Assembly: GCF_024323335.1 (NCBI RefSeq)
Contig: NC_066579.1
Span: 236,581,475-236,645,474, forward strand
Direction of reading: 5' to 3'
Source of the DNA: Lathyrus oleraceus
Lineage: Eukaryota; Streptophyta; Magnoliopsida; Fabales; Fabaceae
DNA length: 64,000 nucleotides
A program made the translations under genes and the position numbers. This document shows positions 6,704 through 63,724 of the stretch, one piece after another (the stretch's first letter is position 1; each line of letters starts with the position of its first letter). The notes under the pieces were generated by a model. It was not told where the DNA came from, did not search any database, and was given only the letters and a program-made list of their open reading frames with translations.

Positions 6704-7193
6704 CCTCATCCCGTTGCTTCCCCCCAGGAGAGTCCTTTTTGGATATCCCCAGTGAGGTCCCTTAGTGGATTATCCTCACCTAAGTCCGGATTTTTATACG
6801 AAGTATCCATTGTGGATAATGTTGTTGTGTTGGCATATTCCCCAACACATGCACCTTCGAGTCAGCTCGAGTCTTTCCATTGGATTTACTCCCTTTGGAA
6901 TTCTGTTCCCCAAGCTTTGAGCCGTGCCCTGCTCATGCATTTCCTTCTTATCCCCATTAGAGTCCCCAGAGTCTCTGTCCCATTTTATGAGCATATTACT
7001 CATTTAGAATTTCAATTTCCTCCTGATCTTTACCTTTGTGGACAGACATCCCCACAGAGTGTTACCATTCTGCATACATTTGCATCATGAGGTCTCTTAG
7101 GGACCAAAATTCGTCTCTTTGTTATTATTTAAGCCCATTCTACCTCGTCGAAACGAAGATTTTAACCTTCACTTCTCCGGCTAGAATGACCTT

Positions 7194-33470: not shown

Positions 33471-33638
33471 AATTGCTCAGTAACCAGTAATTGTTCATCC
33501 TTTTCCCCAACGAATTTTGTAGCCTTCTACCCAATAACCGGTAGTTATAAGTCCTTTTTTCTGTGGTTTTCTACCCAGTAACCGGTAGATGTAATCCCCT
33601 CTTTGTTGGTTATCTTTACCCAGTAACCGGTATCGATA
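33471..33638 (+). repeat. Hairpin array (E2), cut short by E5
   Basis: AATTGCT/AGTAATT with loop CAGTAACC (33471-33492, one G-U), CTACC/GGTAG with loop CAATAACC (33527-33544), CTACC/GGTAG with loop CAGTAACC (33571-33588), and TACC/GGTA with loop CAGTAACC and outer TATC/GATA (33611-33638). Same family as the E1 array. Confidence 0.75.
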
Positions 33639-35692: not shown

Positions 35693-35820
35693 TGTAGCAC
35701 CTCAAATTTGCACCTACCATTATACATACATTTTCATACTAGGTCATAGCATATCATGGTCCATTGCATAGCATTTGCATTGTCCCTCAGTTGCCTCAAG
35801 AGCAAGCAATCAAGAATCAG

Positions 35821-36181
35821 GTCAAACTAATCTCCTGATCAGTCAACCAAGCAAGCAAAGGAATTTCTCATTGAATCAAGGCCTAGGGTTTGTCCAACAA
35901 GTTCACATGACTTGGAGGTCTATTTGAAGTATTTTAGGCAAGGGTTGAAGGCTCAGAGGTCAGCAGTTCATACACAGACAGTCAAAAAACCTAAAAAGTC
36001 AACTGTCAGTCAAGGCAGTCGATGGTGGTCATTCTTGTGGAATTTGGGCACCATGGTCAATAATCAAGAGTTCATACAACTTGGGACATCATTTGAAGTC
36101 AAGTCCTCAAGGAATTAGGGTTTGGAAGTCATCAGTCAATGCACAATCAGACAGAAACCCTAGAAGTCAACTGTTGGTCAA
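35821..36181. promoter_or_regulatory. Cluster of GTCAA (W-box core, reversed) in E3 U3
   Basis: GTCAA occurs at 35821, 35842, 35981, 35998, 36009, 36056, 36098, 36135, 36166 and 36177: ten times, all in the same orientation. TTGAC on the other strand is the core bound by WRKY factors in defence and stress responses. The same cluster is in the 3' LTR, 19083 bases further on. Confidence 0.45.
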
Positions 36182-39100
36182 CTGTCCATTTAATCAGTGA
36201 TTGGACGATTGGAATTGGTTTGTGGGAGTTCATTCATGTCCAAATAGTCATCATATATCATGCCAAACACCATCATGGAAGAATTTGAAGCCAGATCATA
36301 AATTTCCCAAAACGGAAACTGGGCCTGTAACTGAAACTTACCAAAAATGGAAAGTTTTGATCCTCAAGCTTACATCATGATACAAGCCTCAAATGAATTT
36401 TTGCCCAACATGAAAGTTGAAGATCTTGTTCTCCCATTTCCAAAAAGTCCTAGAACTCTCAATTCCCATGTGTGGTTGGCAAGTTATGATCGAATCGATT
36501 TCAGAAAATCTTGAACTTCAAAGGGCCATATCTCTCAAACCGTTTGGCCAATTTTGGTGGGGTTTTTTCCTACAAGTCACATTTGATCCCCTCTTTCCAA
36601 AAATATAAATTTCATGTGCCAAAACTTCACCAATCAAAATGGCATATTTTGACTTTTCTCATTTAAATGAAAGTTTGACCAAGAGTTGACTTTTTGATTT
36701 AAACATTTTTTCAACATTTGGCCAATTGGAACAGCTCATAAATGTCATTTAGAATGTGTTTGCAAAGTCGAATTATGCAGCACATTTGAATCTATACTTG
36801 GTTGCTTGAATTACAAGAAAGGTACAAATGCACCATACTTGTCCATGCCTTGCCTTGTACCTCAAAAGGACAGCATTGTGCATCATTTTTTCTGTCATTT
36901 GTGAACCTAATTAGCAGCCTAACCAACAGCAAAACAAGGGGCCATACTAACTTGCCTAAAATTTGGAAAGTGAAGGTACTTTGCAACCATCCATCCATGC
37001 TTCCACAACCATACTTGTACCACCACATTGCAGATTTTTGCCCATGATTTTCTGTCAAAACCAGACAGTAACAGCATGGCTTTCCCTCTTTTTTCCTGTC
37101 ATGAGTAACATATTGCAGCAGAAAAGCCAAAGGGACTTCATTCATTTTTGACTCAGCATTTTCCTCCTCAAATTAAAACAACAGCCAACAGCAGGTTTTA
37201 GCAAGAGGATTTTTCTGTCATTATGAGGACTGGTAGCAGCAGCAATAGGTGGCACACAATTCTCTCTCAAAATTGCCCATGCTGTTGAAAACTAGAGCAT
37301 CATCCAACAGCAGGCACATTTTTCATTTTTCTGTAAAAGATAAAAACTCCTAATTAGCATCCATCACGAACCATTTTTTTTTTTTGGGGCCAAGGGAAAT
37401 TGATTGTGCAACCTCATTTTATCCAAAACTGATCACACTGTCAAGAACCCCTAAGAAAAAAACTGGCTTTTGCTTAAACATCATATCTTCCTCACTTTCT
37501 GGCCTGGCATTAGCAGCAGCTTCAAAAACACTCTTCACTAATCCTCATAACCTCACTTGCATTTTGCCAAGCCTGGCCTTGCATTGCCTAAAGAAACCCT
37601 GCCATGCCACCAACTGCACAAAAAACCAAAGATGAAGAGCCTCACTATCTGTCATGAAGCTAACAGCCACAAGCCATGACCAACTGCACTCACCCTTTGC
37701 CTTGCACATTGTTCTGCACCACTTCCCTGCCATAACAAAACCAGTAGCAGACCAACCAAACCCCTCTCACACTCTCTCCAACTCACCCTGCTATTGGCAG
37801 TGCATTGGCCCTGTCCAAAAAGCACAAAAACAAACCAGTAGCATAGCCAACCCTACCTTGCCTTGCTAACATGACATAAAACCTGCTAACCAACAAAACC
37901 TTGTACTCTCAAAAACCCTACACTGCACCTTCAAAACCTTACAAACACAACAAACTAACCTGGCCATGAAAAACCAGTCACACCCTCCCAAATCACATTT
38001 GGCTACTTGCATTTGAACTTCACATGGCCAAACTCCAAAGAACCTGTCCAACTCAAAACCAAGCCTTGCATTTGGACCATATTCCCTCATCCTTTTCTGT
38101 CAAAACCAAGCACTAGCTGCAGCCAACATAACTTAGCAAATCCAATCAATCTTTCATTCACCTTGTTCGACCTTCCTGTTGGCAGATGGAAAAAGCTATC
38201 AAAACTCAATAATCTCAAAAAGACCAACATAACACTACAGCAGAGAATTTGATCCACCTTGCCCTCACCTTGCTTTTGCTGTCCAAAACTAGCAGCCACA
38301 AGAAACAATCTTGCCTTGCCAACCCATAGCAGCAGACCAAATCACCTTCACTTACTCCCTCATTTCTTAACCTGGCCTAGGCATTTACACTCCACTCAAA
38401 CCTCACCCTTGCTATGCATTTTCATTTTGCTGTCAAACACCAAAACCACACCTTGACCTTGTCTTGTTGGTTCATCATCAAAGAGGTTGAACATTGAATT
38501 CCACTCCAAGCATCCACAAGGCACAAGAACTTCACCAGTCATCATCAAGAAGGCCATTGGACAAACTGTCTCACTTCAATAGTAACAAACAACATCAAGG
38601 ACACAAACTGCCCTTCAAAAAAGGTATGGATTCGACCCTCCCATTTTCTCAAATTGACATATACTTTGGAAAGATCTTTCAATGCTGAGTTTAGTGATGC
38701 TTTCCTTTTTGAAAATGATTGCTTGTCCATGAAGATATGATGAGATAAAGTTTGATGTTTGAAAATGTTTCATGTGATTTCTTGTTGTGTAGTTCAAATT
38801 AATGAAAATAGGGTTTGGATTGTTGTTGTATGATGTTTGATGATTACAATGGTATGCTCAATTGACATTTTTGGGGAGAAATTAAGAAATTCGAATTTGG
38901 AGATGATGCTGCTACAGTAAACCCCAAAGCCATTTTCCAGTTTTTCTTCTTTCCTCACGTGTACTGTGCCATTCCCCTCCAGCCAATCAAAACATTCCAT
39001 TTACTGCCCAAAACGACTGTGTTTTGTTAAGTGGATTCAAATATTACAAAAATGCCATTCTTGCTTCATTTATTTCACATTTTTATAACCAACCTTCCAA

Positions 39101-40990
39101 AATTCATAACTTGCTCATTTTTGATCCAAATTCAATGGGATTTTTTGTGTTGTGTTCATCATGATCTCTACTTTTTTATCATTATTTTTCCAGAATTTTT
39201 GGGTGAGTGGTTTTTAAATGGTGCTAGGGTTTGTGACATGTGACCAAATTTTGTACATCTTGCCAAAACATTTGTGAAATGATGATACTTTATCCAATGG
39301 CTCCCAAATTTTTTGTGCTTAAACTAGACACATTCATGGTGATTTTGGTATAAAGTTTGTGGATTTATCATTTGTGGTTTGTGAGATATGATTTTTTGAA
39401 TTAGGGTGTGACAACTTGTGTCACACCATTGATGTCCAACTTCATGATTTTCATTACCATGCTTCCTTACATCCAAATGACCCCAAATTTTGCATGAACC
39501 TACTCTTGTATGTCTAGTTCACATGTGAATTTTCTTGGATTTATTTGAGCTATTTTCCTAATTGTTTGAGATTTTCTCCCCTGCCTAGTCAATAGTTGAC
39601 TTTGTGTGACACATGTTCCCATTTCATTTGTGAAATTCTCATACTTTATTAGATGAACATGAAATTTGATATGTGATAACTAGACATCTCAAGCTTGGCA
39701 TTGGTGTTAATCTCATTCATTTCTCATCTGTTTTCAATTTGATATGATTTTTTGAAGTTGACCCATGCTTGTTGACTTTCTTTGAGCATGTTCAAATGTG
39801 CTTTGACTTTCTGATTTTCATTGACTGCCTTCCACTCATCCAAATGGGATGAAATTTGACATGCTTACCATGCTATGTGTTAGGTTTGATCATGATTTAT
39901 TTGATGATTTTTGGAAAATGTTTAGATTGCTTTTGAGTTAAGTCTTGCTGTTGACTTATATGAGCTTCTGTTTGCCATATTTTGACCTAAACTGTTCATG
40001 AAATGATGATAGTGATTGATATGAGTGTGAATCCAATTGGGTTTGTTTCTTGAATGCTTAAATTTGACTTTGATTGGATATCCTTTGCTGTTTTGACTTT
40101 CTCATTCACTTTTGACCCTAGGCTTGCCCTAGTGGTCCTGTTACTCACCTTTGAGTTTGTGATTTCAGGTTGACCATCAAATGGCCATTGAGACCAATTT
40201 TTTTGATTGAGCTTACTCAAGTATCATTGTCTAACCTCTTTGTTTTGTAGGTGGCTTGGCTCACATGCCATAAGCTTTGTACCCTGCACATCCATGTGCC
40301 TCTAATGGACTGATGTTGTCTGTTTCTGTTTGTTTTGTTTGAAGTCGCATACTAACATCTGCTTGACTGTTTCAGGTGCTTTAGTTGCTTTTAGTTCCTT
40401 GTGAACTTTTGCTTTGCTTTGCTTGTATAAGCAATTTGCATTGAGGTATGTCTCTCTTACTTCATGTAGTCTGGAAGACCTGGCCTGTTACTTGGCCAGG
40501 CAACTGTCTGAAGTCCTCCTTAAGAGGCAATGTTTGTGATTGTTTACTTTTGTCCTTGCATAGAGTCAAAGTCCTCCTAAGTGAAGAGGCAATTGGTGGA
40601 AGGTAGGGATATGCAATCTATCCCCCACTATTCAGTGTGTCATCCGCTTTGCTCACACCGCTGTGTTGATGCATTGCAGATACAAACCCAAGATCTTGTG
40701 CAATTGCACAGTTGAGTCAGTATCAAATGTGTAGAAGGGTTCCCACTTTCTGAACCCACACATTCTTGTCTTGAGCTCTCCCAGGCCAGGGATAAGAGCT
40801 GTGAAGTCTTATCTTCACTCACCTTCCATCTGCTTCACCTTAGTCTCTCAATGGCAAGGTTAAGAGCACATTCACCCAGTTCCAGAGGTTTGTTTGTTGA
40901 GGTTGATATGACCCCTTGACTAAAACCTAACCCTTGTTTGAGCCACTTGTTTGTGTATAGCGTGTGCTATCTGTGCTTGTAGGATTGTTT

Positions 40991-41150
40991 GACTTGCTTC
41001 CTGTGCAAGATAGGATTGTTTGACTTGCTTCCTGTGCAACTTAGGATTAGTTTAGACTTGCTTCCTGTGCAAGTTAGGTTTTGCTTGGCTTGCTTCCTGT
41101 GCAAGTTAAGTGTGTGTGGCTTGCTTCCTGTGTGAGCCATGTTTAGGATA
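40991..41150 (+). repeat. Tandem stem-loops with loop TTCCTGT in the E3 LTR
   Basis: Five units of about 32 bp share TTGCTTCCTGTG. The pure stems are ACTTGC/GCAAGT, and CTTGC/GCAAG in the fourth. The last unit has TGGCT/AGCCA, changed on both sides. The second unit has a C/G difference between the two LTRs (GCAAC here, GCAAG at about 60120). The 3' LTR copy is at 60073-60232. Confidence 0.65.
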
Positions 41151-42114
41151 GGTTGGCCCTCGTGCCATTTAGCTAGAAACCATAACTTAGGGTTGATTTT
41201 GCATGACAACATCTAGGCTCGAGTCGTAGTCTCCCTAGAGTTGTGTCTCCCTCTGTTATCTGGTTAGGCTAGAACCTTTGTCCCTCCGTAGGGGAACTAC
41301 ATCGCCCTGATCTTCACACCAGATGAAGTATGTAGGCAGGAGATTGAGCTGATCTCTCCGGGCGCCTTTTCTTTCTTTTGTGTGTGTTGCCTGACCTTTG
41401 CTAGGCTCGAGTCTGTGACTCCTTAGCATTTGCTGTCTGTCTGTTTGTGTGTGCTTGACAGTTATAGGCTGAGTCCCCGACTCCCTATTAACCTGTTGTG
41501 TCGTTGTGTGCTTGGAAGCTGATGTAAGCCCATCAAGTGGCATTTGGGTTCCAGTGTGTGTGCGTTTAGGTTCGGATGCTGACATAAGTCCAGTGATTGG
41601 CAGTCGGGCTCCATGTTTGCCTTTGCTTTGTTTTGTTTGTGCGCGTGTCAGCCGAGCTACGAATGCTCTGATTCTTCTCTCGTCCGAGAAGATACGTATG
41701 CATAGGATGCGACATCCTAGCGAGCATGTGTCGTTTCCCCAGTCCGAACTACTTCGACTCTGATGTCTATGCCTGATAGACTAAGTAGGCCCAGGATACG
41801 ATGTCCTGCCGAGTCAGTTTCAGTCAGTTTCTTTTGTCTCTTTCAGCCAGTGTGTGTGAGTATTTAAGCAGTGTTTAGCAACCAATCTTCCTTCCTTTTG
41901 TGCGTGGATCCCGTAGAGTACTACGGATGCGTAGGGGGCCTAATACCTTCCCTTCGCATAACCGACTCCCGAACCCATCCTCTTTGGTCGCGAGACCATG
42001 TTCTTTCCTAGGTTTACTTCGAGCGTTTCCTTTCCCTCTTTTGGGATAAATAACGCACGGTGGCGGCTCTGTTGTTCTTTCTTTTCCCGCCGGTTTTTCG
42101 CGCGATGCGACAGC

Positions 42115-42132
42115 TGGCGACTCTGCTGGGGA
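42115..42132 (+). promoter_or_regulatory. Primer-binding site, tRNA-Arg type (E3)
   Basis: TGGCGACTCTGCTGGGGA lies two bases (GC) after the LTR end CA. It starts with TGG, complementary to tRNA CCA. Eighteen bases are shared with E4 and E5. Confidence 0.88.
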
Positions 42133-42828
42133 CATAGAGAAGTTGACCTATGCTGGTCCATCTTCCCTGAGCGAGTCTCTCCTAGCGCTCTCTAGGTTAG
42201 GGTTTTGGTTGCTTTGTGCTGTGTTTATTTATTGCATTCATTATTTACTGTTTGCATTCATTGTCTATTGTTTGCATTTATGTTTGCATTAATGTTTGCA
42301 TTTATTCATCTGTTCACCTGGCTGGTTGTCTGTTTCTCTCTGTTGGGGGGAAGAGTCAGTTGAGGTAAAAGGTCCAATACCCAGACCATGAGTGCAATCT
42401 AGGATACCTAGGAATAGAGTGATTCATGGGAAGCGGGTGGTATGGCGCCACTTAGCGGAACATTGATATCACGAGCAGTTCAGACCCTGGTGGGATGCTG
42501 TCGTTACATACTTCGGGTGTGTATATGATAGTATTCTGCGAAAGGTTATTTATGCTGCGTTCCTCTCAGCCTTACCCTGGCCTAGACTACACCCGTGAGT
42601 TGGGAAGGGTTATTCATTACAGGTACCGTTGGTGACTCGGTTCTGTTGGTGACTCTAGTTCAGACAACAGTTTTCGGTTGACCTTAAGTCGGATTTATGT
42701 TCTGATTTTGACTGAAGCTTCGACCTAGTAATCAGAGATTGCACAACCAGCCAGCCATGTCTGCATCATGTGCATCATAGCATATTTATTTTTCAAAAGA
42801 AACGCAATAAAAAAAATCAAAAAAAAAG

Positions 42829-42864
<36 letters not shown>

Positions 42865-42938
42865 AAAAAAAGAAAAAAACTAATCTCTGCATGCATATCA
42901 TTTCTCAGGTACATTCCAGAGCTTGTCTACTGATAGAG
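42133..42938 (+). other. E3 leader with a long A-rich tract
   Basis: Non-coding between primer site and ORF1. An A-rich tract with a few G and C interruptions covers about 42806-42879, ending 60 bases before the ORF1 ATG. The packaging signal would be expected in this region in the family, but no specific element can be pointed to. Confidence 0.6.
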
Positions 42939-44578
42939 ATGGCAACGGTCCCCGAGCCGAAGCGGAAGACCTGTTCCTACAGCTTTCATCGTGAGCCGTT
43001 GACTTCACTGATTGAGTTGGGTAGCTTTGTGACAGATGATCGTCTGAAGAATTTCGTTGGACAGTATGGAGATATCTTGACAGTACTGAAGACAGTAGTG
43101 GATCCGGTGTCTCTGCAGACACTACTACAGTTTTATGACCCAGAGCTCAGATGCTTCACTTTCCAGGATTATCAGCTTGCACCTACTCTCGAGGAGTATT
43201 CTATCCTGTTGAGTATCCCTATTCAGCATCAGATTCCCTTTTTGGACGTCCCAAAGGAGGTCGATTTCCGATTGATTGCCAGAGCTCTACGAATGAATGT
43301 CAAGGAAGTTGGTGAGAATTGGAAGCCCTGTGGGGAAGTTGTGGGTCTGCCGTTGAAGTTCCTTCTGAGAGTTGCTAGAGATGAAGCCGAGAAGGGGAAT
43401 TGGGAAGTTTTTCACGCGCAGCTTGCCACCATGATCTATGGGATTGTCCTATTTCCCAGTATGCCAAATTTTGTTGACCATGCAGCTATCAGTATCTTCA
43501 TTGGAAGGAATCCAGTCCCTACCCTTCTAGCTGATACTTACTATGCCATCCACAGTAGGCATGGTAAGGGTGGAGCCATCAGGTGCTGCTTACCTCTTCT
43601 GTTCAAATGGTTCATGTCTCTTCTGCCAGCTAGTGGACCATTTGTAGATACCCAGAGCACTCTTAAGTGGACTCAGAGGGTCATGTCACTCACCTCCTAT
43701 GACATCAGATGGCAGTCGTACCGGATAGATGTGAAGGACGTCATTATGAGCTGTGGAGGATTCCGTAATGTGCCACTCATAGGGACCAGAGGTTGCATCA
43801 ATTACAACCCGGTTCTTTCTCTTCGCCAGTTGGGTTTGTGATGAAGGGAAGACCACTTGAGGCTGAGGTAGCTGAAAGTGTGTATTTTGAGAAGAAGGAT
43901 GACCCGGCTAGATTGGAGCAGATTGGGAGGGCTTGGAAGTCCATTGGTGTCAAAGATGGATCTGTCTTAGGGAAGAAGTTTGCCATTGCTATGCCTGATT
44001 ACACCGATTGGGTCAAGAAGAGAGTGGAAACTTTGTTGTTACCCTACGATAGGATGGAGCCGTTGCAAGAGCAACCACCCTTGGTTCTCGCTGATAGTGT
44101 ACCTGCTGAGCACTATAAGCAAGCCTTGATGGAGAATCGTCGGTTGAGAGAGAAAGAGCAAGACACTCAGATGGAACTATACAAAGCTAAGGCTGATAAG
44201 CTGCACTTGGCCCATCAACTCAGGGAAGTGCAAGGAGAGGATGCTAGCAGAGCACGGAGCAAGAAGAGATCATATGAGGAGATGGAATCCATGTTGGATG
44301 CAGAGCATAGGGAGTGTTTGAGGTTGCAGAGAGCAGAAGTCAACTATCAGAAGAAGATCAGAGACCTAGAGAAGCAACTCAAAGACAAAGACACTCAGTT
44401 GAAGAAAGAGATGGAGTTGAGACAGAAATCAGAGGACTATCTTGAAGGAGAAGTCTTGGAGCTTAGAAGACAACTGAAGGAGAAAATCACCCCTCTACCA
44501 GAATGTTCAGAATGCTCACTGTTGATAGACCAGTGCCATTACCTGAAGACCCTCATTCCGGAAGACCGTCTGTCTTAG
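42939..44578 (+). pseudogene. Ogre ORF1 (plant-mobile-domain-like) with one frame break (E3)
   Basis: ATG at 42939 (MATVPEPKRK). The N-terminal globular part holds LLQFYDPELRCFTFQDYQLA, APTLEEYSILLSIPI, MIYGIVLFPSMPNFVDHAAI, PTLLADTYYAIH and NVPLIGTRGCINYNP, resembling the plant mobile domain. The frame stops at 43839-43841 (TGA). The same protein continues at once in the -1 frame (FVMKGRPLEAEVAESVYFE) to TAG at 44576, with a long coiled coil over the last 150 residues. E4 and E5 read through at this point without a shift, so one base is probably missing in GGGTTTG. The site also has the shape of a -1 slippery heptamer. Total length is about 546 residues. The biochemical role of Ogre ORF1 is not known to me. 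Confidence 0.8.
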
Positions 44579-48358: not shown

Positions 48359-48610
48359 TTTTCTGTTGTTTTGTCATTTTGCATGAAAATCCTACGTTCT
48401 GCCCAAGGCGTAGTGATTCATTTTTGTAGGGCCTCATCATGTTTTAATGATTATCATTAATGAAGGACATTTTTTGAACAAACTTTATGATCCTTGTCTT
48501 TCTATTTTTTGTTTTCATTTTTCTTTTTCAAAAACAATAAAAATGGCAATGTTTTTTGTTTTTGTGACTTTATTGAACTCTTTTTCTAAAACAAAGCATC
48601 AAACATGCAG
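48355..48610 (+). other. Predicted Ogre intron (E3)
   Basis: Donor GA|GTAATT, acceptor AAACATGCAG; 256 nt, T-rich. The two donor-side bases GA plus A from the acceptor side make one Glu codon, so gag-pro and pol join in frame. The phase is the same as in E1 and E2 although the sequence differs. Confidence 0.8.
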
Positions 48611-51600
48611 AAGCGATCTTATGGCATTCACTATGAACAGTTCTGTTATGGCTCAGTATGATTTCGATAATCCCATTTACCAAGCTGAAGAGGAGAGTGA
48701 GGAAGACTGTGAACTCCCTGCAGAATTGGCCAGATTACTGAAGCAGGAGGAAAGGGTCATCCAACCTCATCAGGAGGAGTTGAAAACTGTTAATTTGGGT
48801 ACTGAGGACGACAAAAAAGAAATCAAGATTGGGGCTGCTTTAGAGGACTCTGTCAAGAGGAGGCTGATTGAGATGCTGAGAGAATATGTGGAAGTGTTCG
48901 CCTGGTCGTACCAAGATATGCCTGGTTTAGATACAGACATTGTGGTGCATCGATTACCTCTTAGGGAAGGATGTCCTTCGGTCAAGCAGAAGCTTCGTAG
49001 AACGAGTCCTGACATGGCAACTAAGATCAAGGAAGAGGTTCAGAAGCAGTGGGATGCAGGTTTTCTGGCTGTTACCAGTTATCCACCGTGGGTGGCCAAC
49101 ATCGTTCCTGTGCCGAAGAAGGATGGTAAAGTCAGAATGTGTGTCGATTACCGAGATTTGAATAGAGCGAGTCCGAAAGATGATTTCCCATTACCTCACA
49201 TTGATGTATTGGTTGATAATACGGCTCAATCCTCGGTATTCTCTTTCATGGATGGTTTCTCCGGATATAATCAGATCAAGATGGCGCCAGAGGACATGGA
49301 AAAGACGACATTCATTACACCTTGGGGCACGTTCTGCTACAAAGTGATGCCATTTGGGCTGAAGAATGCTGGTGCTACCTATCAGAGGGCAATGACGACT
49401 CTCTTTCATGACATGATGCACAAAGAGATTGAAGTGTACGTAGACGATATGATTGCAAAGTCGCAGACAGAAGAGGAGCACCTGGTTAATTTGCAGAAGC
49501 TGTTTGATCGGTTGAGAAAGTTCAAGCTGAGGTTGAATCCGAACAAGTGTACGTTTGGGGTAAGATCAGGGAAGCTTTTAGGCTTCATTGTCAGTGAGAA
49601 AGGGATTGAGGTTGATCCAGCAAAAGTCAAAGCTATTCAAGAGATGCCTGAACCAAAAACGGAGAAGCAAGTCCGTGGGTTTTTAGGGAGATTGAATTAC
49701 ATTGCAAGGTTCATATCTCATCTAACTGCTACATGTGAACCAATTTTCAAACTGCTCAGAAAGAATCAAGCGATCAAGTGGAATGATGATTGTCAGAAAG
49801 CTTTTGACAAAATCAAGGAGTATTTACAGAAACCTCCAATCCTTATACCTCCAGTTCCAGGGAGACCTCTGATAATGTACCTGTCAGTGACTGAGAACTC
49901 GATGGGGTGTGTATTGGGACAGCATGACGAGTCTGGTCGAAAAGAGCATGCCATATACTACCTTAGCAAAAAGTTTACCGACTGTGAAACAAGATATTCA
50001 CTGCTCGAGAAAACTTGCTGTGCTTTGCCCTGGGCTGCTCGCCGACTAAGACAGTATATGTTGAACCATACTACCTTATTGATTTCTAAGATGGATCCAG
50101 TGAAGTACATCTTTGAGAAACCAGCTCTCACCGGACGTGTTGCCCGTTGGCAGATGATCTTAACAGAGTATGACATTCAGTACACGTCACAGAAGGCCAT
50201 CAAGGGTAGTATTCTGTCAGATTACCTTGCCGAGCAACCGATTGAAGATTATCAGCCTATGATGTTTGAATTCCCTGATGAAGACATCATGTATCTCAAG
50301 ATGAAAGATTGCGAAGAGCCTCTTGTCGAGGATGGACCGGACCCGGATGACAAATGGACACTGATGTTTGATGGGGCTGTGAATATGAATGGTAACGGTG
50401 TTGGGGCAGTGCTGATCAATCCTAAAGGTGCTCATATACCTTTTTCTGCCAGATTGACGTTTGACGTCACCAACAACGAAGCTGAGTATGAGGCTTGTAT
50501 CATGGGGATAGAAGAAGCCATTGATCTGAGGATCAAAACTCTTGATATATTTGGAGATTCCGCTCTAGTGGTCAATCAAGTCAACGGAGATTGGAATACG
50601 AACCAGCCGCATTTGATTCCGTATAGAGATTACACCAGAAGAATACTGACGTTCTTCAAGAAAGTAAAGTTGTATCATGTCCCCCGGGATGAGAATCAAA
50701 TGGCGGATGCTTTGGCAACTTTGTCGTCTATGATCAAAGTTCATTGGTGGAATCATGTGCCACATGTTGCGGTGAATCGACTTGAGAGACCTGCGTATGT
50801 GTTTGCAGCCGAGTCTGTTGTGATTGATGAGAAGCCGTGGTATTATGACATCAAGAATTTCCTCAAGACTCAGGAGTACCCTGAAGGTGCGTCGAAGAAC
50901 GACAAGAAAACCCTGAGGAGGCTAGCTGGAAGCTTCTATTTGAATCAGGATGATGTGCTATACAAAAGGAACTTTGACATGGTCTTGCTCAGATGCGTGG
51001 ATAGACACGAAGCAGACATGTTATTGCAAGAAGTGCACGAGGGTTCGTTTGGTACCCATGCTGGTGGTCATGCAATGTCGAAGAAATTGCTGAGAGCTGG
51101 TTATTACTGGATGACTATGGAATCCGATTATTTCAAGTATGCTCGGAAGTGCCATAAGTGTCAAATCTATGCTGATAAGGTGCATGTACCACCAAGCCCT
51201 CTGAATATCATGAATTCGCCTTGGCCGTTTGCCATGTGGGGCATTGATATGATTGGGAAGATCGAGCCTACTGCTTCGAATGGACATCGCTTCATCTTGG
51301 TTGCGATTGATTATTTCACCAAGTGGGTAGAAGCAGCTTCCTATGCTAACGTTACCAAACAAGTGGTTACCCGGTTCATCAAGAAAGAAATCATCTGTCG
51401 TTATGGAGTTCCTGAGAGAATCATCACTGACAATGGTTCGAATCTCAACAACAAGATGATGAAAGAGCTTTGTAAAGATTTCAAGATTGAACATCACAAT
51501 TCTTCTCCTTATAGACCGAAGATGAATGGTGCTGTAGAAGCAGCAAACAAGAATATCAAGAAGATTGTGCAGAAGATGGTCGTTACGTACAAGGATTGGC

Positions 51601-52088
51601 ATGAGATGCTGCCTTTCGCTTTGCATGGGTACCGTACCTCAGTACGTACGTCGACCGGGGCAACCCCTTACTCCCTTGTGTATGGTATGGAAGCTGTTCT
51701 ACCTGTTGAAGTGGAGATTCCTTCTCTGAGAGTTTTGTTGGATGTCAAGCTGGACGAAGCTGAGTGGATTCGAACAAGGTTTAACGAGTTGAGCCTTATC
51801 GAAGAAAGACGGTTAGCAGCTGTATGCCATGGACAGTTGTATCAGAGAAGGATGAAGCGAGCCTTTGATCAGAAAGTGCATCCTCGAAACTATCAGGTCG
51901 GTGATTTAGTGTTGAAGAGGATCCTCCCTCCCGGTGCAGACAACAGGGGCAAGTGGACTCCTAACTATGAAGGTCCGTATGTTGTGAAGAAGGTCTTCTC
52001 CGGTGGAGCCTTGATGCTTACAACTATGGATGGTGAAGATTTTCCGTCTCCTGTCAACTCAGATGTAGTCAAAAAATACTTCGCATAA
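48611..52088 (+). CDS. pol: Pol of E3 (reverse transcriptase, dual RNase H, integrase)
   Basis: 1158 complete codons after the acceptor, uninterrupted. RT: MCVDYRDLNRASPKDDFPLP, SFMDGFSGYNQIKMAPEDME, YVDD at residues 276-279. The RT-linked RNase H (MGCVLGQHDESGRKEHAIYY) is at about 410-530. The second, archaeal-type RNase H, the mark of the Tat lineage, has D587, E625 (or neighbours), D649 and D699. Integrase: zinc module H809, H816 and CHKC; catalytic D879, D940, E976 (DDX35E); C-terminal GPY-type module (GKWTPNYEGPYVV). It ends VKKYFA. Pol is translated only as a fusion after splicing; the open frame upstream of 48611 is intronic. It copies element RNA into DNA and inserts it. All key residues are present. 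Confidence 0.95.
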
Positions 52089-52291: not shown

Positions 52292-53631
52292 GGCAAAAGT
52301 TAGGGATTAAAGCGAAGACTACAGTCTGAGTTGTCTGTACTTCATCGAGCTTTGTCGTCTGCCATCTCGAAAGATGTGATCTGTCCAGTCATTCTTCTCA
52401 GAAAGCAAGGAGTTGGGAGGAAAACTGATGATCTGTGAGTTATAACAGAGTTGGGAAATAGTGGATGCCGTGTTCACATTGCCATTAGGATAGATTTTTC
52501 CTTTTGTGCGCAATTACCTCTTTCTAGGAATTGCTTCCCAATGTATTTGCCTCTTCAGGCACATTTTCAATCAATAAAAATCGTTATTCAGATAAACAGC
52601 TTCTTTGTTTTTATTTTTACTGTTTTGTTTGCAAAAATGTCCGAATTTTTGATAAGCATTGCATATAAAAACATGAAGGCTAAACAATAACTCGCAGGAT
52701 GGCGAAACATTTGAAAATTATTTTGAATGTTGAGGACACTTGAACGTATCTTGTCCATGTCTCCCCTGGGGGCAGTTTGTTGTGCTGTTTTTCAAGTTGA
52801 CATCTGTGAGGACGTTTCCTCAACAGATATTTTCCCCAAGCAAGTTTGGAAGCTATCAGAGCTATGTTCCCCTACAGAGACGTCTGTGGATAGTGCCTTC
52901 TATTTCCAGCAGATCTAAGGATTGCCTATCCCCAGCAGACCTGTATTTGCCGATTTCCTCCCCGAGTGAGGCAGGATCATTTGAGATTTATCTCCAGCAT
53001 TTACCCTACCTGTGGACTGAAGGATATCCCTAGCGGAGTTTACCTTTCCCCAGCAGCAGGTGCTATTCCTCAACATGAGTGTGAAGTCGTTTCGCCATTC
53101 CTCAAGCAGAGTTCCCCGCAGAGTATTTCCTCAAGCAGAGTCTCCCTACAGAGTTGGAGTATCCGATCAGTTCTGGCTCCCCAGCCGGAGTTTTTCATCA
53201 TTTTGCATTTTGCATGTAGTAATCATTGCATCCTCAAAAATTGCGTAGCATTCCCATTCAACATGGAGCATTACGCCATAGAAAAATTCAAACATATGCA
53301 TTCATGTGTTAACTTCACCAGACCGTATCCCCGGCAGAGGCGGATCATTTCGTTCAACATCAGCGCAGCAAGACTGCTACAGTTGCTCTTGACAGCATTC
53401 AAAATTGTTTATTCCCCACAGAGGTTTATTTCCTCACCCGATGGTGACAGAGGTTCATTTCCTCACCCGATGGTGACAGAGGTTTATTTCCTCACCCGAT
53501 GGTGACAGAAAGTTTGTTTCTCCTCAGTGAGACCCCCAGCAAGTGGTCAACCTTGCCTTGACATATCTCAGATGTCGTTTTTGTGATACCAGTAAGTGTC
53601 ATGCCAGCAACCGCGTGTGCTTATTCATTTT
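52292..53631 (+). repeat. E3 3' region, first part
   Basis: No gene. It contains TCCCCAGCAG-type motifs (52929, 53047) and many CAGAGT-like words. Three tandem 29 bp units lie at 53425-53453, 53454-53482 and 53483-53511, each with the hairpin TCACC/GGTGA around CGAT. Confidence 0.6.
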
Positions 53632-54644
53632 TGGTGTCGGTAAACACCATTGTTTCGGTGTCGGTAAACATCGAGTATTTTCTCCAGTCATCAGTAAATG
53701 TCTGGTCATCATTTTTGGTGTCGGTAAACACCATTGTTTCGGTGTCTGTAAACATCGAGTATTTTCTCCAATCATCGGTAAATGTCTGGTCATTTTTGAT
53801 GTCGGTAAACATCATCTTTCGATGTCGGTAAACATCGAGTATTTCTTTCAGTCATCGGTAAATGTCTGATAAATCCCCAGCTAGAAATCCCCAGTAGAGT
53901 CATCTGTGAATGTCCTATCTGGTTTCCAGTTGCAAATATTCGTATCTTCCCAATAATTTTCTCATTCCCAGTCATCGGTAAATGTCTGGTCATTTCTTTG
54001 GATGTCGGTAAACATCATCTTTCGATGTCGGTAAACATCGTGTCCCACCCCAGTCATCGGTAAATGTCTGGTCATTCTTTTGATGTCGGTAAACATCATC
54101 TTTCGATGTCGGTAAACGTCGAGTCACATCCCAGTCATCGGTAAATGTCTGGTCGTGAAATCAAGATCCCCAGAAGTCGTCGGTAAACGTCTTGTCTGGT
54201 ATCACCACAAAGAGTTTATTCCTCCCCAAGTGGAGATGCCATCGGTAAATGGCCCCGTGTTCTTCGATATCGGTAAATATCGAATTCCCAGCTGCAGCAG
54301 CCATCGGTGAATGGTCTTGCTGAGTTGACATCGGTAAATGTCAAGTTTCTTTGAAGCCACCATCGGTAAATGGTCCTGCTTCCTTTCAACATCAAATTTG
54401 TTTTCCCAGCAGCCATCGGTAAATGGTTGTGCTGAAGTTGATATCGGTAAATATCAAAGTTTCCAATTTTAACCATCGGTAAATGGTTTTGCTTTTCAGA
54501 AGTTTATTTTCCCCAGCCACCATCGGTAAATGGTCTCGCTGAAGTTGATATCAGCAAATATCAAGTTTCCAGTTCTCCAACCATCGGTAAATGGTTTTGC
54601 TTTTGCTGAAGCTGTCAATTGCAGGCGTCGTCGGTAAATGACGT
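53632..54644 (+). repeat. CGGTAA hairpin array of E3
   Basis: About two dozen short inverted repeats around the same hexanucleotide CGGTAA. Examples: TGGTGT/ACACCA (53632-53649 and 53716-53733), CGGTGT/ACATCG (53656-53673), TGATGT/ACATCA (53797-53814), TCGATGT/ACATCGA (53819-53838), GCCAT/ATGGC (54238-54253), TTCGATAT/ATATCGAA (54263-54284), TTGACAT/ATGTCAA (54325-54344), TTGATAT/ATATCAA (54438-54457), AACCAT/ATGGTT (54471-54488 and 54579-54596), and GCGTCGT/ATGACGT with G-U pairs (54625-54644). A further class is CCAGtCAT/ATGtCTGG with one T-T mismatch (about 54050). At 54545-54564 the loop has changed to CAGCAA but the 7 bp stem is kept. Confidence 0.85.
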
Positions 54645-54762
54645 GGTTCTTTTGTATCATATCCAGTACTGTGCAAATTCTACGGTTCTTTGGTATTCAA
54701 TCCCTGTTTACCCTGAAAGTCTGACAGCCGTTGCTATCATCCGTTCGGGTTCCCAGCTGATT

Positions 54763-54775
54763 GAATAGGGGCAGC
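54763..54775 (+). promoter_or_regulatory. Polypurine tract of E3
   Basis: GAATAGGGGCAGC lies directly before the 3' LTR. The core AATAGGGGCA is the same as in E1. Confidence 0.75.
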
Positions 54776-57700
54776 TGTAGCACCTCAAATTTGCACCTAC
54801 CATTATACATACATTTTCATACTAGGTCATAGCATATCATGGTCCATTGCATAGCATTTGCATTGTCCCTCAGTTGCCTCAAGAGCAAGCAATCAAGAAT
54901 CAGGTCAAACTAATCTCCTGATCAGTCAACCAAGCAAGCAAAGGAATTTCTCATTGAATCAAGGCCTAGGGTTTGTCCAACAAGTTCACATGACTTGGAG
55001 GTCTATTTGAAGTATTTTAGGCAAGGGTTGAAGGCTCAGAGGTCAGCAGTTCATACACAGACAGTCAAAAAACCTAAAAAGTCAACTGTCAGTCAAGGCA
55101 GTGGATGGTGGTCATTCTTGTGGAATTTGGGCACCATGGTCAATAATCAAGAGTTCATACAACTTGGGACATCATTTGAAGTCAAGTCCTCAAGGAATTA
55201 GGGTTTGGAAGTCATCAGTCAATGCACAATTAGACAGAAACCCTAGAAGTCAACTGTTGGTCAACTGTCCATTTAATCAGTGATTGGACGATTGGAATTG
55301 GTTTGTGGGAGTTCATTCATGTCCAAATAGTCATCATATATCATGCCAAACACCATCATGGAAGAATTTGAAGCCAGATCATAAATTTCCCAAAACGGAA
55401 ACTGGGCCTGTAACTGAAACTTACCAAAAATGGAAAGTTTTGATCCTCAAGCTTACATCATGATACAAGCCTCAAATGAATTTTTGCCCAACATGAAAGT
55501 TGAAGATCTTGTTCTCCCATTTCCAAAAAGTCCTAGAACTCTCAATTCCCATGTGTGGTTGGCAAGTTATGATCGAATCGATTTCAGAAAATCTTGAACT
55601 TCAAAGGGCCATATCTCTCAAACCGTTTGGCCAATTTTGGTGGGGTTTTTTCCTACAAGTCACATTTGATCCCCTCTTTCCAAAAATATAAATTTCATGT
55701 GCCAAAACTTCACCAATCAAAATGGCATATTTTGACTTTTCTCATTTAAATGAAAGTTTGACCAAGAGTTGACTTTTTGATTTAAACATTTTTTCAACAT
55801 TTGGCCAATTGGAACAGCTCATAAATGTCATTTAGAATGTGTTTGCAAAGTCGAATTATGCAGCACATTTGAATCTATACTTGGTTGCTTGAATTACAAG
55901 AAAGGTACAAATGCACCATACTTGTCCATGCCTTGCCTTGTACCTCAAAAGGACAGCATTGTGCATCATTTTTTCTGTCATTTGTGAACCTAATTAGCAG
56001 CCTAACCAACAGCAAAACAAGGGGCCATACTAACTTGCCTAAAATTTGGAAAGTGAAGGTACTTTGCAACCATCCATCCATGCTTCCACAACCATACTTG
56101 TACCACCACATTGCAGATTTTTGCCCATGATTTTCTGTCAAAACCAGACAGTAACAGCATGGCTTTCCCTCTTTTTTCCTGTCATGAGTAACATATTGCA
56201 GCAGAAAAGCCAAAGGGACTTCATTCATTTTTGACTCAGCATTTTCCTCCTCAAATTAAAACAACAGCCAACAGCAGGTTTTAGCAAGAGGATTTTTCTG
56301 TCATTATGAGGACTGGTAGCAGCAGCAATAGGTGGCACACAATTCTCTCTCAAAATTGCCCATGCTGTTGAAAACTAGAGCATCATCCAACAGCAGGCAC
56401 ATTTTTCATTTTTCTGTAAAAGATAAAAACTCCTAATTAGCATCCATCACGAACCATTTTTTTTTTTGGGGCCAAGGCAAATTGATTGTGCAACCTCATT
56501 TTATCCAAAACTGATCATACTGTCAAGAACCCCTAAGAAAAAAACTGGCTTTTGCTTAAACATCATATCTTCCTCACTTTCTGGCCTGGCATTAGCAGCA
56601 GCTTCAAAAACACTCTTCACTAATCCTCATAACCTCACTTGCATTTTGCCAAGCCTGGCCTTGCATTGCCTAAAGAAACCCTGCCATGCCACCAACTGCA
56701 CAAAAAACCAAAGATGAAGAGCCTCACTATCTGTCATGAAGCTAACAGCCACAAGCCATGACCAACTGCACTCACCCTTTGCCTTGCACATTGTTCTGCA
56801 CCACTTCCCTGCCATAACAAAACCAGTAGCAGACCAACCAAACCCCTCTCACACTCTCTCCAACTCACCCTGCTATTGGCAGTGCATTGGCCCTGTCCAA
56901 AAAGCACAAAAACAAACCAGTAGCATAGCCAACCCTACCTTGCCTTGCTAACATGACATAAAACCTGCTAACCAACAAAACCTTGTACTCTCAAAAACCC
57001 TACACTGCACCTTCAAAACCTTACAAACACAACAAACTAACCTGGCCATGAAAAACCAGTCACACCCTCCCAAATCACATTTGGCTACTTGCATTTGAAC
57101 TTCACTTGGCCAAACTCCAAAGAACCTGTCCAACTCAAAACCAAGCCTTGCATTTGGACCATATTCCCTCATCCTTTTCTGTCAAAACCAAGCACTAGCT
57201 GCAGCCAACATAACTTAGCAAATCCAATCAATCTTTCATTCACCTTGTTCGACCTTCCTGTTGGCAGATGGAAAAAGCTATCAAAACTCAATAATCTCAA
57301 AAAGACCAACATAACACTACAGCAGAGAATTTGATCCACCTTGCCCTCACCTTGCTTTTGCTGTCCAAAACTAGCAGCCACAAGAAACAATCTTGCCTTG
57401 CCAACCCATAGCAGCAGACCAAATCACCTTCACTTACTCCCTCATTTCTTAACCTGGCCTAGGCATTTACACTCCACTCAAACCTCACCCTTGCTATGCA
57501 TTTTCATTTTGCTGTCAAACACCAAAACCACACCTTGACCTTGTCTTGTTGGTTCATCATCAAAGAGGTTGAACATTGAATTCCACTCCAAGCATCCACA
57601 AGGCACAAGAACTTCACCAGTCATCATCAAGAAGGCCATTGGACAAACTGTCTCACTTCAATAGTAACAAACAACATCAAGGACACAAACTGCCCTTCAA

Positions 57701-60700
57701 AAAAGGTATGGATTCGACCCTCCCATTTTCTCAAATTGACATATACTTTGGAAAGATCTTTCAATGCTGAGTTTAGTGATGCTTTCCTTTTTGAAAATGA
57801 TTGCTTGTCCATGAAGATATGATGAGATAAAGTTTGATGTTTGAAAATGTTTCATGTGATTTCTTGTTGTGTAGTTCAAATTAATGAAAATAGGGTTTGG
57901 ATTGTTGTTGTATGATGTTTGATGATTACAATGGTATGCTCAATTGACATTTTTGGGGAGAAATTAAGAAATTCGAATTTGGAGATGATGCTGCTACAGT
58001 AAACCCCAAAGCCATTTTCCAGTTTTTCTTCTTTCCTCACGTGTACTGTGCCATTCCCCTCCAGCCAATCAAAACATTCCATTTACTGCCCAAAACGACT
58101 GTGTTTTGTTAAGTGGATTCAAATATTACAAAAATGCCATTCTTGCTTCATTTATTTCACATTTTTATAACCAACCTTCCAAAATTCATAACTTGCTCAT
58201 TTTTGATCCAAATTCAATGGGATTTTTTGTGTTGTGTTCATCATGATCTCTACTTTTTTATCATTATTTTTCCAGAATTTTTGGGTGAGTGGTTTTTAAA
58301 TGGTGCTAGGGTTTGTGACATGTGACCAAATTTTGTACATCTTGCCAAAACATTTGTGAAATGATGATACTTTATCCAATGGCTCCCAAATTTTTTGTGC
58401 TTAAACTAGACACATTCATGGTGATTTTGGTATAAAGTTTGTGGATTTATCATTTGTGGTTTGTGAGATATGATTTTTTGAATTAGGGTGTGACAACTTG
58501 TGTCACACCATTGATGTCCAACTTCATGATTTTCATTACCATGCTTCCTTACATCCAAATGACCCCAAATTTTGCATGAACCTACTCTTGTATGTCTAGT
58601 TCACATGTGAATTTTCTTGGATTTATTTGAGCTATTTTCCTAATTGTTTGAGATTTTCTCCCCTGCCTAGTCAATAGTTGACTTTGTGTGACACATGTTC
58701 CCATTTCATTTGTGAAATTCTCATACTTTATTAGATGAACATGAAATTTGATATGTGATAACTAGACATCTCAAGCTTGGCATTGGTGTTAATCTCATTC
58801 ATTTCTCATCTGTTTTCAATTTGATATGATTTTTTGAAGTTGACCCATGCTTGTTGACTTTCTTTGAGCATGTTCAAATGTGCTTTGACTTTCTGATTTT
58901 CATTGACTGCCTTCCACTCATCCAAATGGGATGAAATTTGACATGCTTACCATGCTATGTGTTAGGTTTGATCATGATTTATTTGATGATTTTTGGAAAA
59001 TGTTTAGATTGCTTTTGAGTTAAGTCTTGCTGTTGACTTATATGAGCTTCTGTTTGCCATATTTTGACCTAAACTGTTCATGAAATGATGATAGTGATTG
59101 ATATGAGTGTGAATCCAATTGGGTTTGTTTCTTGAATGCTTAAATTTGACTTTGATTGGATATCCTTTGCTGTTTTGACTTTCTCATTCACTTTTGACCC
59201 TAGGCTTGCCCTAGTGGTCCTGTTACTCACCTTTGAGTTTGTGATTTCAGGTTGACCATCAAATGGCCATTGAGACCAATTTTTTTGATTGAGCTTACTC
59301 AAGTATCATTGTCTAACCTCTTTGTTTTGTAGGTGGCTTGGCTCACATGCCATAAGCTTTGTACCCTGCACATCCATGTGCCTCTAATGGACTGATGTTG
59401 TCTGTTTCTGTTTGTTTTGTTTGAAGTCGCATACTAACATCTGCTTGACTGTTTCAGGTGCTTTAGTTGCTTTTAGTTCCTTGTGAACTTTTGCTTTGCT
59501 TTGCTTGTATAAGCAATTTGCATTGAGGTATGTCTCTCTTACTTCATGTAGTCTGGAAGACCTGGCCTGTTACTTGGCCAGGCAACTGTCTGAAGTCCTC
59601 CTTAAGAGGCAATGTTTGTGATTGTTTACTTTTGTCCTTGCATAGAGTCAAAGTCCTCCTAAGTGAAGAGGCAATTGGTGGAAGGTAGGGATATGCAATC
59701 TATCCCCCACTATTCAGTGTGTCATCCGCTTTGCTCACACCGCTGTGTTGATGCATTGCAGATACAAACCCAAGATCTTGTGCAATTGCACAGTTGAGTC
59801 AGTATCAAATGTGTAGAAGGGTTCCCACTTTCTGAACCCACACATTCTTGTCTTGAGCTCTCCCAGGCCAGGGATAAGAGCTGTGAAGTCTTATCTTCAC
59901 TCACCTTCCATCTGCTTCACCTTAGTCTCTCAATGGCAAGGTTAAGAGCACATTCACCCAGTTCCAGAGGTTTGTTTGTTGAGGTTGATATGACCCCTTG
60001 ACTAAAACCTAACCCTTGTTTGAGCCACTTGTTTGTGTATAGCGTGTGCTATCTGTGCTTGTAGGATTGTTTGACTTGCTTCCTGTGCAAGATAGGATTG
60101 TTTGACTTGCTTCCTGTGCAAGTTAGGATTAGTTTAGACTTGCTTCCTGTGCAAGTTAGGTTTTGCTTGGCTTGCTTCCTGTGCAAGTTAAGTGTGTGTG
60201 GCTTGCTTCCTGTGTGAGCCATGTTTAGGATAGGTTGGCCCTCGTGCCATTTAGCTAGAAACCATAACTTAGGGTTGATTTTGCATGACAACATCTAGGC
60301 TCGAGTCGTAGTCTCCCTAGAGTTGTGTCTCCCTCTGTTATCTGGTTAGGCTAGAACCTTTGTCCCTCCGTAGGGGAACTACATCGCCCTGATCTTCACA
60401 CCAGATGAAGTATGTAGGCAGGAGATTGAGCTGATCTCTCCGGGCGCCTTTTCTTTCTTTTGTGTGTGTTGCCTGACCTTTGCTAGGCTCGAGTCTGTGA
60501 CTCCTTAGCATTTGCTGTCTGTCTGTTTGTGTGTGCTTGACAGTTATAGGCTGAGTCCCCGACTCCCTATTAACCTGTTGTGTCGTTGTGTGCTTGGAAG
60601 CTGATGTAAGCCCATCAAGTGGCATTTGGGTTCCAGTGTGTGTGCGTTTAGGTTCGGATGCTGACATAAGTCCAGTGATTGGCAGTCGGGCTCCATGTTT

Positions 60701-61194
60701 GCCTTTGCTTTGTTTTGTTTGTGCGCGTGTCAGCCGAGCTACGAATGCTCTGATTCTTCTCTCGTCCGAGAAGATACGTATGCATAGGATGCGACATCCT
60801 AGCGAGCATGTGTCGTTTCCCCAGTCCGAACTACTTCGACTCTGATGTCTATGCCTGATAGACTAAGTAGGCCCAGGATACGATGTCCTGCCGAGTCAGT
60901 TTCAGTCAGTTTCTTTTGTCTCTTTCAGCCAGTGTGTGTGAGTATTTAAGCAGTGTTTAGCAACCAATCTTCCTTCCTTTTGTGCGTGGATCCCGTAGAG
61001 TACTACGGATGCGTAGGGGGCCTAATACCTTCCCTTCTCATAACCGACTCCCGAACCCATCCTCTTTGGTCGCGAGACCATGTTCTTTCCTAGGTTTACT
61101 TCGAGCGTTTCCTTTCCCTCTTTTGGGATAAATAACGCACGGTGGCGGCTCTGTTGTTCTTTCTTTTCCCGCCGGTTTTTCGCGCGATGCGACA
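54776..61194 (+). repeat. 3' LTR of E3
   Basis: 6419 bp, almost identical to the 5' LTR. Differences found by eye: near 36022, 36151, 37396, 37436, 38027, 41039 and 41957 of the 5' copy, plus one T fewer in the run near 37380. It includes the same GTCAA cluster and TTCCTGT hairpins. Confidence 0.96.
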
Positions 61195-61199
61195 ATAAG
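61195..61199. other. Target site duplication of E3, right copy (ATAAG)
   Basis: Identical to 35688-35692; E5 ORF1 sequence resumes immediately after it. Confidence 0.95.
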
Positions 61200-63706: not shown

Positions 63707-63724
63707 TCCCCAGCAGAGTCGCCA
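63707..63724 (-). promoter_or_regulatory. Primer-binding site, tRNA-Arg type (E5)
   Basis: The minus strand reads TGGCGACTCTGCTGGGGA, two bases (GC) from the LTR end, the same geometry as E3. Confidence 0.85.

Follow-up and report, generated by a model that had tools for sequence, protein, structure and literature searches.

The question raised by this locus is what maintains an array of small hairpins which share nearly the same loop and differ in the stem. The window (the whole stretch analysed, 64,000 nucleotides of Lathyrus oleraceus) was placed at C1:236581475-236645474 by search of the 3.795-Gb pea assembly, and self-comparison identified in it a full-length Ogre, element A, at 35693-61194, exceeding 20 kb. 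The organisation of this element is that of Ogre (Ty3/gypsy, Tat clade), comprising very long LTRs, an extra ORF1 before gag, a second RNase H and, between pol and the 3' LTR, the tandem repeats that form the hypervariable 3' region of the group. A hallmark of Ogre is that gag-protease and RT-RH-INT lie in separate ORFs joined by splicing; here the gag-protease ORF ends at 48358 and the separate pol ORF starts at 48447. The pol product contains RVT_3/RNase_H at residues 637-758, downstream of RT_RNaseH at 471-575 (Pfam), the second RNase H being presumably of the archaeal type. The primer binding site is presumably of the tRNA-Arg type (Table 1). Hairpins with a near-constant loop and covarying stems occupy the region 3' of pol (end 52088) and stop about 120 bp upstream of the polypurine tract.

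ORF1 consists of two overlapping frames (42768-43841 and 43793-44578) and is interrupted in this young copy; gag and pol are open. Its product matches Q6WAY4_PEA, presumably the entry from the original pea Ogre, with 89% identity over 84% of the query, and relatives were found on Lathyrus oleraceus contigs. The predicted structure has a mean pLDDT of 63 and a long helical region at the C-terminus; a known RNA-binding fold was sought, and neither a PDB match at E <= 0.001 nor a sequence match was obtained. A packaging signal (psi) is recognised by Gag and required for encapsidation; a motif scan of the gag ORF of element A identified no CCHC zinc knuckle. Two more Ogre pol copies are present in the window, one (C) at its left end and one (B) at about 26.7-32 kb; they share 87% identity, and each is 67-68% identical to A. 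A second DUF7745 ORF (61038-62474, minus strand) overlaps the end of the 3' LTR and continues past it, and apparently comes from another Ogre copy in the opposite orientation.

Table 1. Coordinates of the features of element A and of the related 3' regions (positions in the window)
Feature	Position	Strand	Basis
Element C 3' region, 8 hairpins with 8-nt loops	5862..6706	+	alignment
Element B 3' region, 3 hairpins with loops CAGTAACC and CAATAACC, interrupted by another insertion	33522..33638	+	alignment
Element A 5' LTR	35693..42112	+	self-BLAST: 6420 bp, 99.88% vs 3' LTR
Primer binding site TGGCGACTCTGCTGGGGAC	42115..42133	+	sequence directly after 5' LTR
ORF1 (DUF7745)	42768..44578	+	ORFs and Pfam PF24924
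gag-protease ORF, 1144 aa	44924..48358	+	Pfam Retrotrans_gag; protease motif
pol ORF (RT, RNase H, second RNase H-like domain, integrase)	48447..52088	+	Pfam
Hairpin array, 30 units, loop C-N-G-Y-R-A, T-A closing pair, covarying stems	53630..54645	+	scan and covariation tests
Loop starts, units 1-15	53638, 53662, 53692, 53722, 53746, 53776, 53803, 53826, 53856, 53904, 53976, 54006, 54029, 54058, 54087		
Loop starts, units 16-30	54110, 54139, 54181, 54243, 54271, 54305, 54332, 54364, 54417, 54445, 54477, 54524, 54552, 54585, 54632		
Segment I, 81-84 bp repeats with three hairpins each	53625..54154	+	TRF and unit scan
Transition hairpin AAGtCGT/ACGtCTT, outer CCAGA/TCTGG (outer by eye)	54173..54194	+	unit scan
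Segment II, 107-bp repeats (54295-54604) and flanking units	54235..54645	+	TRF and unit scan
Polypurine-tract region GAATAGGGGCAGC	54763..54775	+	sequence; adjoins 3' LTR
Element A 3' LTR	54776..61194	+	self-BLAST; 6.42-kb LTR pair
CCCCAGCAGAGTC near-copy regions	52869-53901 (A), 32199-32840 (B), 5255-6964 (C)	sense	motif count

The array had been predicted as about two dozen hairpins with a fixed CGGTAA loop, and both figures need correction. Thirty units were identified by a scan that demanded C-N-G-Y-R-A, fixing loop positions C1, G3 and A6 (a stemless match at 53605 was excluded), and among them the loop is CGGTAA in 25 and CAGTAA, CTGTAA, CTGTGA, CGGTGA and CAGCAA in one each. The pair closing the loop is T-A in all 30 units; the second and the third pairs are Watson-Crick in 29/30 each, the remainder being G-U. 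At least five contiguous pairs (G-U counted) were found in 22 units. The other eight have three inner pairs, a T-T mismatch and then more pairs; exceptions are 53776, where the mismatch is followed by A-C, and 53904, with few outer pairs. The T-T mismatch predicted for one subclass is thus present in these 8 of the 30 units of the window. In the pooled stretches described below this class has exceptions, the T-T being replaced by A-T in four TTTGACAT/ATGTCTGG units and by C-T in one. CGGTAA is found at 37 places in the window, where 8.6 would be expected, and the 12 copies outside the array never have stems longer than 3 bp. Perfect hairpins of at least 5 bp in 53621-54660 number 19 (16 with this loop type) against 5.0 in shuffled sequence (maximum 11), and those of at least 6 bp number 12 against 1.4 (maximum 7; 200 shuffles in both cases). 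A covariance model built from 24 units recovers the 30 sites, all on the plus strand, with no other match in the window up to E 5.

Segment I comprises two repeat blocks, 53625-53868 and 53967-54154, and the spacer between them holds one divergent unit (53904). Its three hairpins are TGRTGT/ACAYCA, TCGRTGT/ACATCGA and CCAGtCAT/ATGtCTGG, the last with the T-T mismatch. The stems of segment II are (R)CCAT/ATGG(Y), TTGAYAT/ATRTCAA or TTCGATAT/ATATCGAA, and AACCAT/ATGGTT, some units having also the outer stems CAGCA/TGCTG and GAAGC/GCTTC (by eye). The self-complementary stems named in the original prediction were all found in their places. Upstream of the main array, at 53418-53509, there are three 29-bp repeats with the hairpin TCACC-CGAT-GGTGA.

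The array grew by tandem duplication, as seen in its 81-84-bp and 107-bp higher-order repeats, yet matched slots differ on both arms: TGGTGT/ACACCA and TGATGT/ACATCA, TTGACAT/ATGTCAA and TTGATAT/ATATCAA, or CCAG/CTGG and TCAG/CTGA occupy the same slot in different copies. The flank columns located 2-14 nt off the loop are mostly close to saturation; they differ in 29-76% of unit pairs, and in at least half of the pairs in 22 of the 26 columns. When the 3' letters were permuted among 24 distinct units, the observed 82.8% of paired cells compared with 63.3% and the observed covariation score of 0.626 with 0.291, values reached by none of 500 shuffles; with the partners slid by 1-3 columns the score was 0.219 or less. 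The covariation proposed at the outset was thus recovered against shuffles in pairing and in score, but not in the count of doubly changed pairs (7 against 6.6) or in the number of pair types (19 against 19.2), where the 24 units present no excess.

Because the copies of the array are related, a null that respects relatedness was also used, in which right-arm changes were redistributed over a neighbour-joining tree in four constructions (both arms, left arm only, right arm only and shorter flanks), the trees being rough because they were built on 20-34 nt. In the array of element A 170 of 210 cells are paired against 124-132 under this null, and the pair-keeping changes on the same branch are 6-9 against null means of 0.6-1.3, neither being reached in 2000 nulls on any of the four trees. 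An explanation by relatedness only, with a few ancestral palindromes copied in tandem, agrees with the higher-order repeats but not with the failure of the tree-aware nulls on every tree tried for A, nor with the different arms inside one slot. It is refuted for family A at the level tested, stands for lineage F (see below), and as a general account is very improbable. The worry that the units might be simple copies of two or three ancestral palindromes is therefore removed, and the initial observation is confirmed and broader than first described.

The same design was identified in other copies of the family. The triple TCGGTAAA at array spacing gave 81,118 matches in the pea genome (overlapping triples each counted) against 1 for the reversed control, and a stem was found in none of the four isolated TCGGTAAA sites scored among eight loci (L001, L003, L004 and L005). 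Eleven further stretches (L039-L049), taken non-randomly from the start of the C1 matches listed and three of them holding only 4-7 units, were pooled with the window into a set of 272 loop-selected units with 96 distinct arm pairs. The tree test on the 12 stretches, made with 224 distinct units whose loop matched CGGTAA in at least five of six positions, gave 1240 paired cells of 1568 against 964 (0/500) and 6 double changes on the same branch against 1.8 (reached by 5/500 nulls). One-sided changes kept the pairing by G-U in 66 cases, broke it in 49 and repaired it in 20. The pea Ogre copies are probably mostly dead, with shared amplification bursts, and those of one genome are not independent. 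One of the stretches, L046 (1-1201, minus strand), is an array of 61-bp period where the CGGTAA hairpin alternates with a CCAGTCAT-GCGTAA-GTGTCTGG variant; this array may be an early satellite expansion.

The units used for the flank, tree and G-U tests were loop-selected and their loop constancy is partly by construction. As the scan itself fixed C1, G3 and A6, constancy of the loop was judged by a loop-blind count, in which 109 of 121 perfect hairpins from the 12 arrays (stem of at least 6 bp, identical tandem copies counted) have a 6-nt loop. Position 2 of these 109 is G in 92, A in 11, T in 5 and C in 1, and every other position has one base in 105-108 of them; rare loops with a different base at position 1 or 3 occur, for example in L045. 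Position 2 is freer than the others, which points to a base that is flipped out or goes unread; part of its A may come from CpG decay.

The main rival to selection is quasi-palindrome correction, where the reverse transcriptase would switch template in the hairpin and copy one arm from the other, leaving complementarity without any selected function. The hairpin region is reverse transcribed in every cycle, and in a passage on the hypervariable 3' region PMC7004042 mentions copies co-packaged in one particle (citing Macas et al. 2009). Correction of this kind, however, leaves unexplained the near-constant loop of the loop-blind hairpins amid diverged flanks, as well as the T-T mismatch, which most units of its class retain. 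It also predicts simultaneous changes in the two arms, of which few fall on one branch in the pooled set and in lineage E, and the lean towards G-U described next argues against it. Templated correction is regarded as unlikely.

Among the 96 distinct arm pairs of the pooled stems G-U exceeds A-C by 24:7 at positions 2-5, but the ratio shrinks to 29:18 at positions 2-6, near the shuffled 83:71, and to 6:3 in the window alone (positions 1-6). For this reason the evidence that pairing is maintained as sense-strand RNA is weak to moderate. Folding energies in 100-nt windows over 53001-55000 are ordinary, with mean z of -0.64 and -0.71 for the sense strand and -0.97 and -1.61 for the antisense, and predicted pairing is higher in the antisense (0.70) than in the sense (0.60); such z-scores are uninformative for short AT-rich hairpins. 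The proposal that RNA structure is maintained in the 3' region of an Ogre stands as regards the element, the location and the pairing beyond the relatedness null, but its sense-RNA part keeps the grade just given and finds no sense preference in folding energy. The search of 52100-54780 in Rfam gave three weak matches up to E 5, none above gathering; the best had 22.9 bits against the 40 needed and lies on the minus strand outside the array, and no known Rfam family fits. No relatives were identified in viral and genome contig collections. Kissing of the loop with the rest of the element was discarded, TTTACCGA being found twice only, in coding sequence at 47050 and 49974, and not near the 5' end.

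The hairpins could also be read as a DNA-level element: dyads recognised by a DNA-binding protein, cruciforms, or satellite seeds. Sirevirus LTRs contain boxes of palindromic repeats that have been interpreted as DNA sites acting in cis (PMC2829016), satellites derive from Ogre 3' tandem repeats (PMC7004042), and some pea arrays are simple tandems, such as the one of 61-bp period in L046. A dimeric DNA site, however, keeps its half-sites and tolerates changes in the spacer, whereas here the spacer (the loop) is kept and the half-sites vary; moreover, the arrays are in the 3' region, outside the LTR, and the non-Watson-Crick pairs weakly favour G-T over A-C on the sense strand. A DNA-level role is improbable.

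The same hairpin design with lineage-specific loops is present in the Ogre lineages B/C, D and E; the loop cores of these were picked after reading the sequences, so that their shuffle tests are descriptive. In element C the loops are CAGTAACC, CTTATACC, CCTATACC, TGGTATCC and CAATATTC, on variable stems mostly ending in ACC/GGT. B and C together have 11 aligned hairpins, a twelfth (6824-6851, loop CATATTCC, different arms) having been removed before counting, and CAGTAACC is the loop in 5 of the 11; 83.3% of their cells are paired against 73.3% shuffled (0/500), with 3 double-change pairs against 1.7 (reached by 58/500). In the genome, ACCCAGTAACCGGT twice at array spacing was identified in 3,845 places against 0. 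At positions 3-6, 98 of 136 cells are paired against 75 (maximum 87 in 2000 nulls). This count used 34 distinct arm pairs with the loop and with CC/GG as closing pairs, taken from 12 loci of which three overlap at one place. A common core links the A loop, C-N-GUAA, with CAGUAA-CC, the main loop of B/C.

A search for further lineages with a Populus integrase piece, where 150 of 139,745 candidates were scored and 30 loci fetched, gave 19 loci of D, 2 of B/C, 6 of E and 3 of F, with representatives 74-80% identical. Lineage D has a 14-nt apex of the CATCTTTGAGT or TTCATCTTTGAGTT type on stems such as GTTACC/GGTAAC, TCCATC/GATGGA, GTGCT/AGCAC, TGTGC/GCACA, TGCC/GGCA and CTACC/GGTAG. Its units all come from L090 and L094, the 19 loci of the integrase search ending before the array and giving none; a stem of at least 4 bp is present in 24 of 35 distinct units against 7.0 (maximum 14 in 500 nulls), and the tree test with 36 units gave 143/216 paired cells against 109 (2/2000) and 4 double changes against 0.9 (10/2000). 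The loop of E is CAAGAGY, on stems such as CTGAGAAAT/ATTTCTCAG, ATGAGAAAT/ATTTCTCAT, TTGAGAAAT/ATTTCTCAA, TTAAGAAAT/ATTTCTTAA, TCAGC/GCTGA, TCAAC/GTTGA and TCAGT/ACTGA. Stems of at least 5 bp were found in 21 of 39 E units against 8.2 (maximum 14 in 1000 nulls), and in 23 units of one register 188/230 cells are paired against 143 (0/2000), with same-branch double changes not significant (1 against 0.86); the locus L063 and its follow-up L091, which apparently run into LTR-like sequence, were left out. Finally, F presents CAGGT/ACCTG around CAT(A/G)(T/C)NTGA in 33 occurrences, 14 of them distinct, and gives no covariation signal because its arms are constant (mean stem 4.64 against 4.59). The F loci L064, L074, L075 and L092 contain tandem repeats (91 bp in L092) with the near-palindrome CAGGTCATGTATGAACCTG, also of constant arms.

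These loops bear on another explanation, proposed because the loop of A shows N/GUAAA: the array would be a set of decoy splice donors recruiting U1 snRNP and suppressing splicing or premature polyadenylation in the 25-kb RNA. Each loop variant of the window agrees with G-Y-R-A-A and leaves position 2 free, G-Y-R-A being required by the scan itself. A stem, however, is not needed for pairing with U1 and would rather impede it, and the GU core is missing from the loops of D and E and from some of B/C (CTTATACC and CCTATACC), which makes a U1 decoy highly unlikely. A GNRA-like loop as a general rule was rejected, since it fits A (C-N-GNRA) and fails for D, E and some B/C loops.

The preferred reading, to which a probability of about one half is given, is a selected sense-strand RNA hairpin array offering multivalent sites for a lineage-specific protein that would handle genomic RNA. 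The array would be a cis-acting module of the Ogre genomic RNA, with some 30 small stem-loops formed in the sense RNA shortly before the polypurine tract. Each would display U[CNGUAA]A, and its stem could take any sequence provided that pairing holds. A conserved loop on free but paired stems points to a protein reading the loop in a helical frame, the opposite of a DNA dyad, and the hairpins are thus putative docking sites, many used together, for an RNA-binding protein. Part of the Ogre RNA has to escape splicing, and the RNA has to be packaged; the location of the array at its 3' end suggests a part in genomic-RNA handling, where the bound protein may mark the full-length RNA for packaging into particles, for export of unspliced RNA, or for both. 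Tandem duplication would supply new docking sites, and these would then drift while staying paired, which would give the apparent hypervariability. The roles first suggested for the array were a possible repeated binding site for Gag or a host protein, or possible protection of the RNA end.

As the loops differ between lineages of one nucleus, a reader encoded by the element (Gag or ORF1) seems more likely than a shared host factor. A further and rather doubtful step is that each Ogre lineage has its own loop word, read by its own protein, as an RNA identity tag to package or export its own genomes only; if so, loop words would be replaced in step with changes of the protein that reads them. 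If the hairpin arrays are selected, they would represent a concrete cis signal for recognition of the genomic RNA of a plant LTR retrotransposon, explain how the region varies without loss of function, and constitute a natural library with very many stem variants on one loop. Palindromic motifs in Ogre-derived satellites could then have an origin at the RNA level.

Other repeats were identified near the hairpins. The motif CCCCAGCAGAGTC is exactly complementary to 42119-42131, within the primer binding site of element A. Its near-copies (up to 3 mismatches) on the sense strand of the 3' regions number 8 in A, 5 in B and 6 in C, where local shuffles give 0.5, 0.3 and 0.4 (19 in total against about 1.2), and the other strand has 1, 0 and 0. 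Letter-permuted motifs average 0.3, 0.1 and 0.1 in A, B and C, although one permutation reached 6 in A. In Ty3 part of the primer binding site is present in the 3' UTR, and circularisation through the tRNA has been proposed (PMC4974528); the copies found here might possibly serve end-to-end pairing or be tRNA-related repeats. Exact copies outside the three 3' regions, at 15681-15693 and 63708-63720 on the plus strand, may be primer binding sites belonging to opposite-strand elements. The LTRs of element A contain 31-bp tandem repeats (40980-41132 and 60062-60214), several with a CTTGC-TTCCTGT-GCAAG hairpin, and many perfect hairpins are found in the LTR stretch at 40-42 kb.

Among known systems, the Ogre/Tat hypervariable 3' UTR repeats (Vondrak et al. 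2019, PMC7004042) belong to the same elements and likewise lie between pol and the 3' LTR; these tandem repeats vary between families, and short arrays can expand. Ogre accounts for a large share of legume genomes, 45% in Lathyrus sativus, and its 3' repeats seed satellite DNA (PMC7004042). The difference is that in the main text of that paper the terms "hairpin", "palindrom" and "secondary structure" are absent, and in the parts covered constant loops or covarying stems are not mentioned. In the literature searched, which includes parts of PMC7004042, PMC2206039, PMC2829016 and PMC6911290, covers subscription journals thinly and leaves Macas et al. 2009 outside, the Ogre 3' repeats figure as a hypervariable kind of tandem sequence and their structure goes unmentioned, and no description of loop-conserved covarying hairpins in Ogre was found.

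The bipartite primer binding site and cyclization of Ty1/Ty3 genomic RNA are similar in that sequences of the 3' end act in reverse transcription, but no repeated arrays of constant-loop hairpins are described in the parts of that review covered (PMC4974528). The palindromic repeated motifs of Sireviruses (Bousios et al. 2010, PMC2829016) are likewise palindromes present in many copies in the non-coding sequence of LTR retrotransposons of plants; as presented in the sections covered, they differ in that most of them lie in the LTR, 5' of the promoter, in being read as DNA sites, and in having conserved arms (a CGG-CCG core in all but one element) around a spacer that differs. The array of element A is outside the LTR, and it is its loop that is conserved and its arms that vary. 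Constitutive transport elements, which export unspliced RNA through NXF1, consist of a few stem-loops near the 3' end, compared with about 30 covarying copies in element A. Those of simple retroviruses, as described in the parts of PMC4829213 covered, resemble the array in being an RNA element that serves unspliced genomic RNA.
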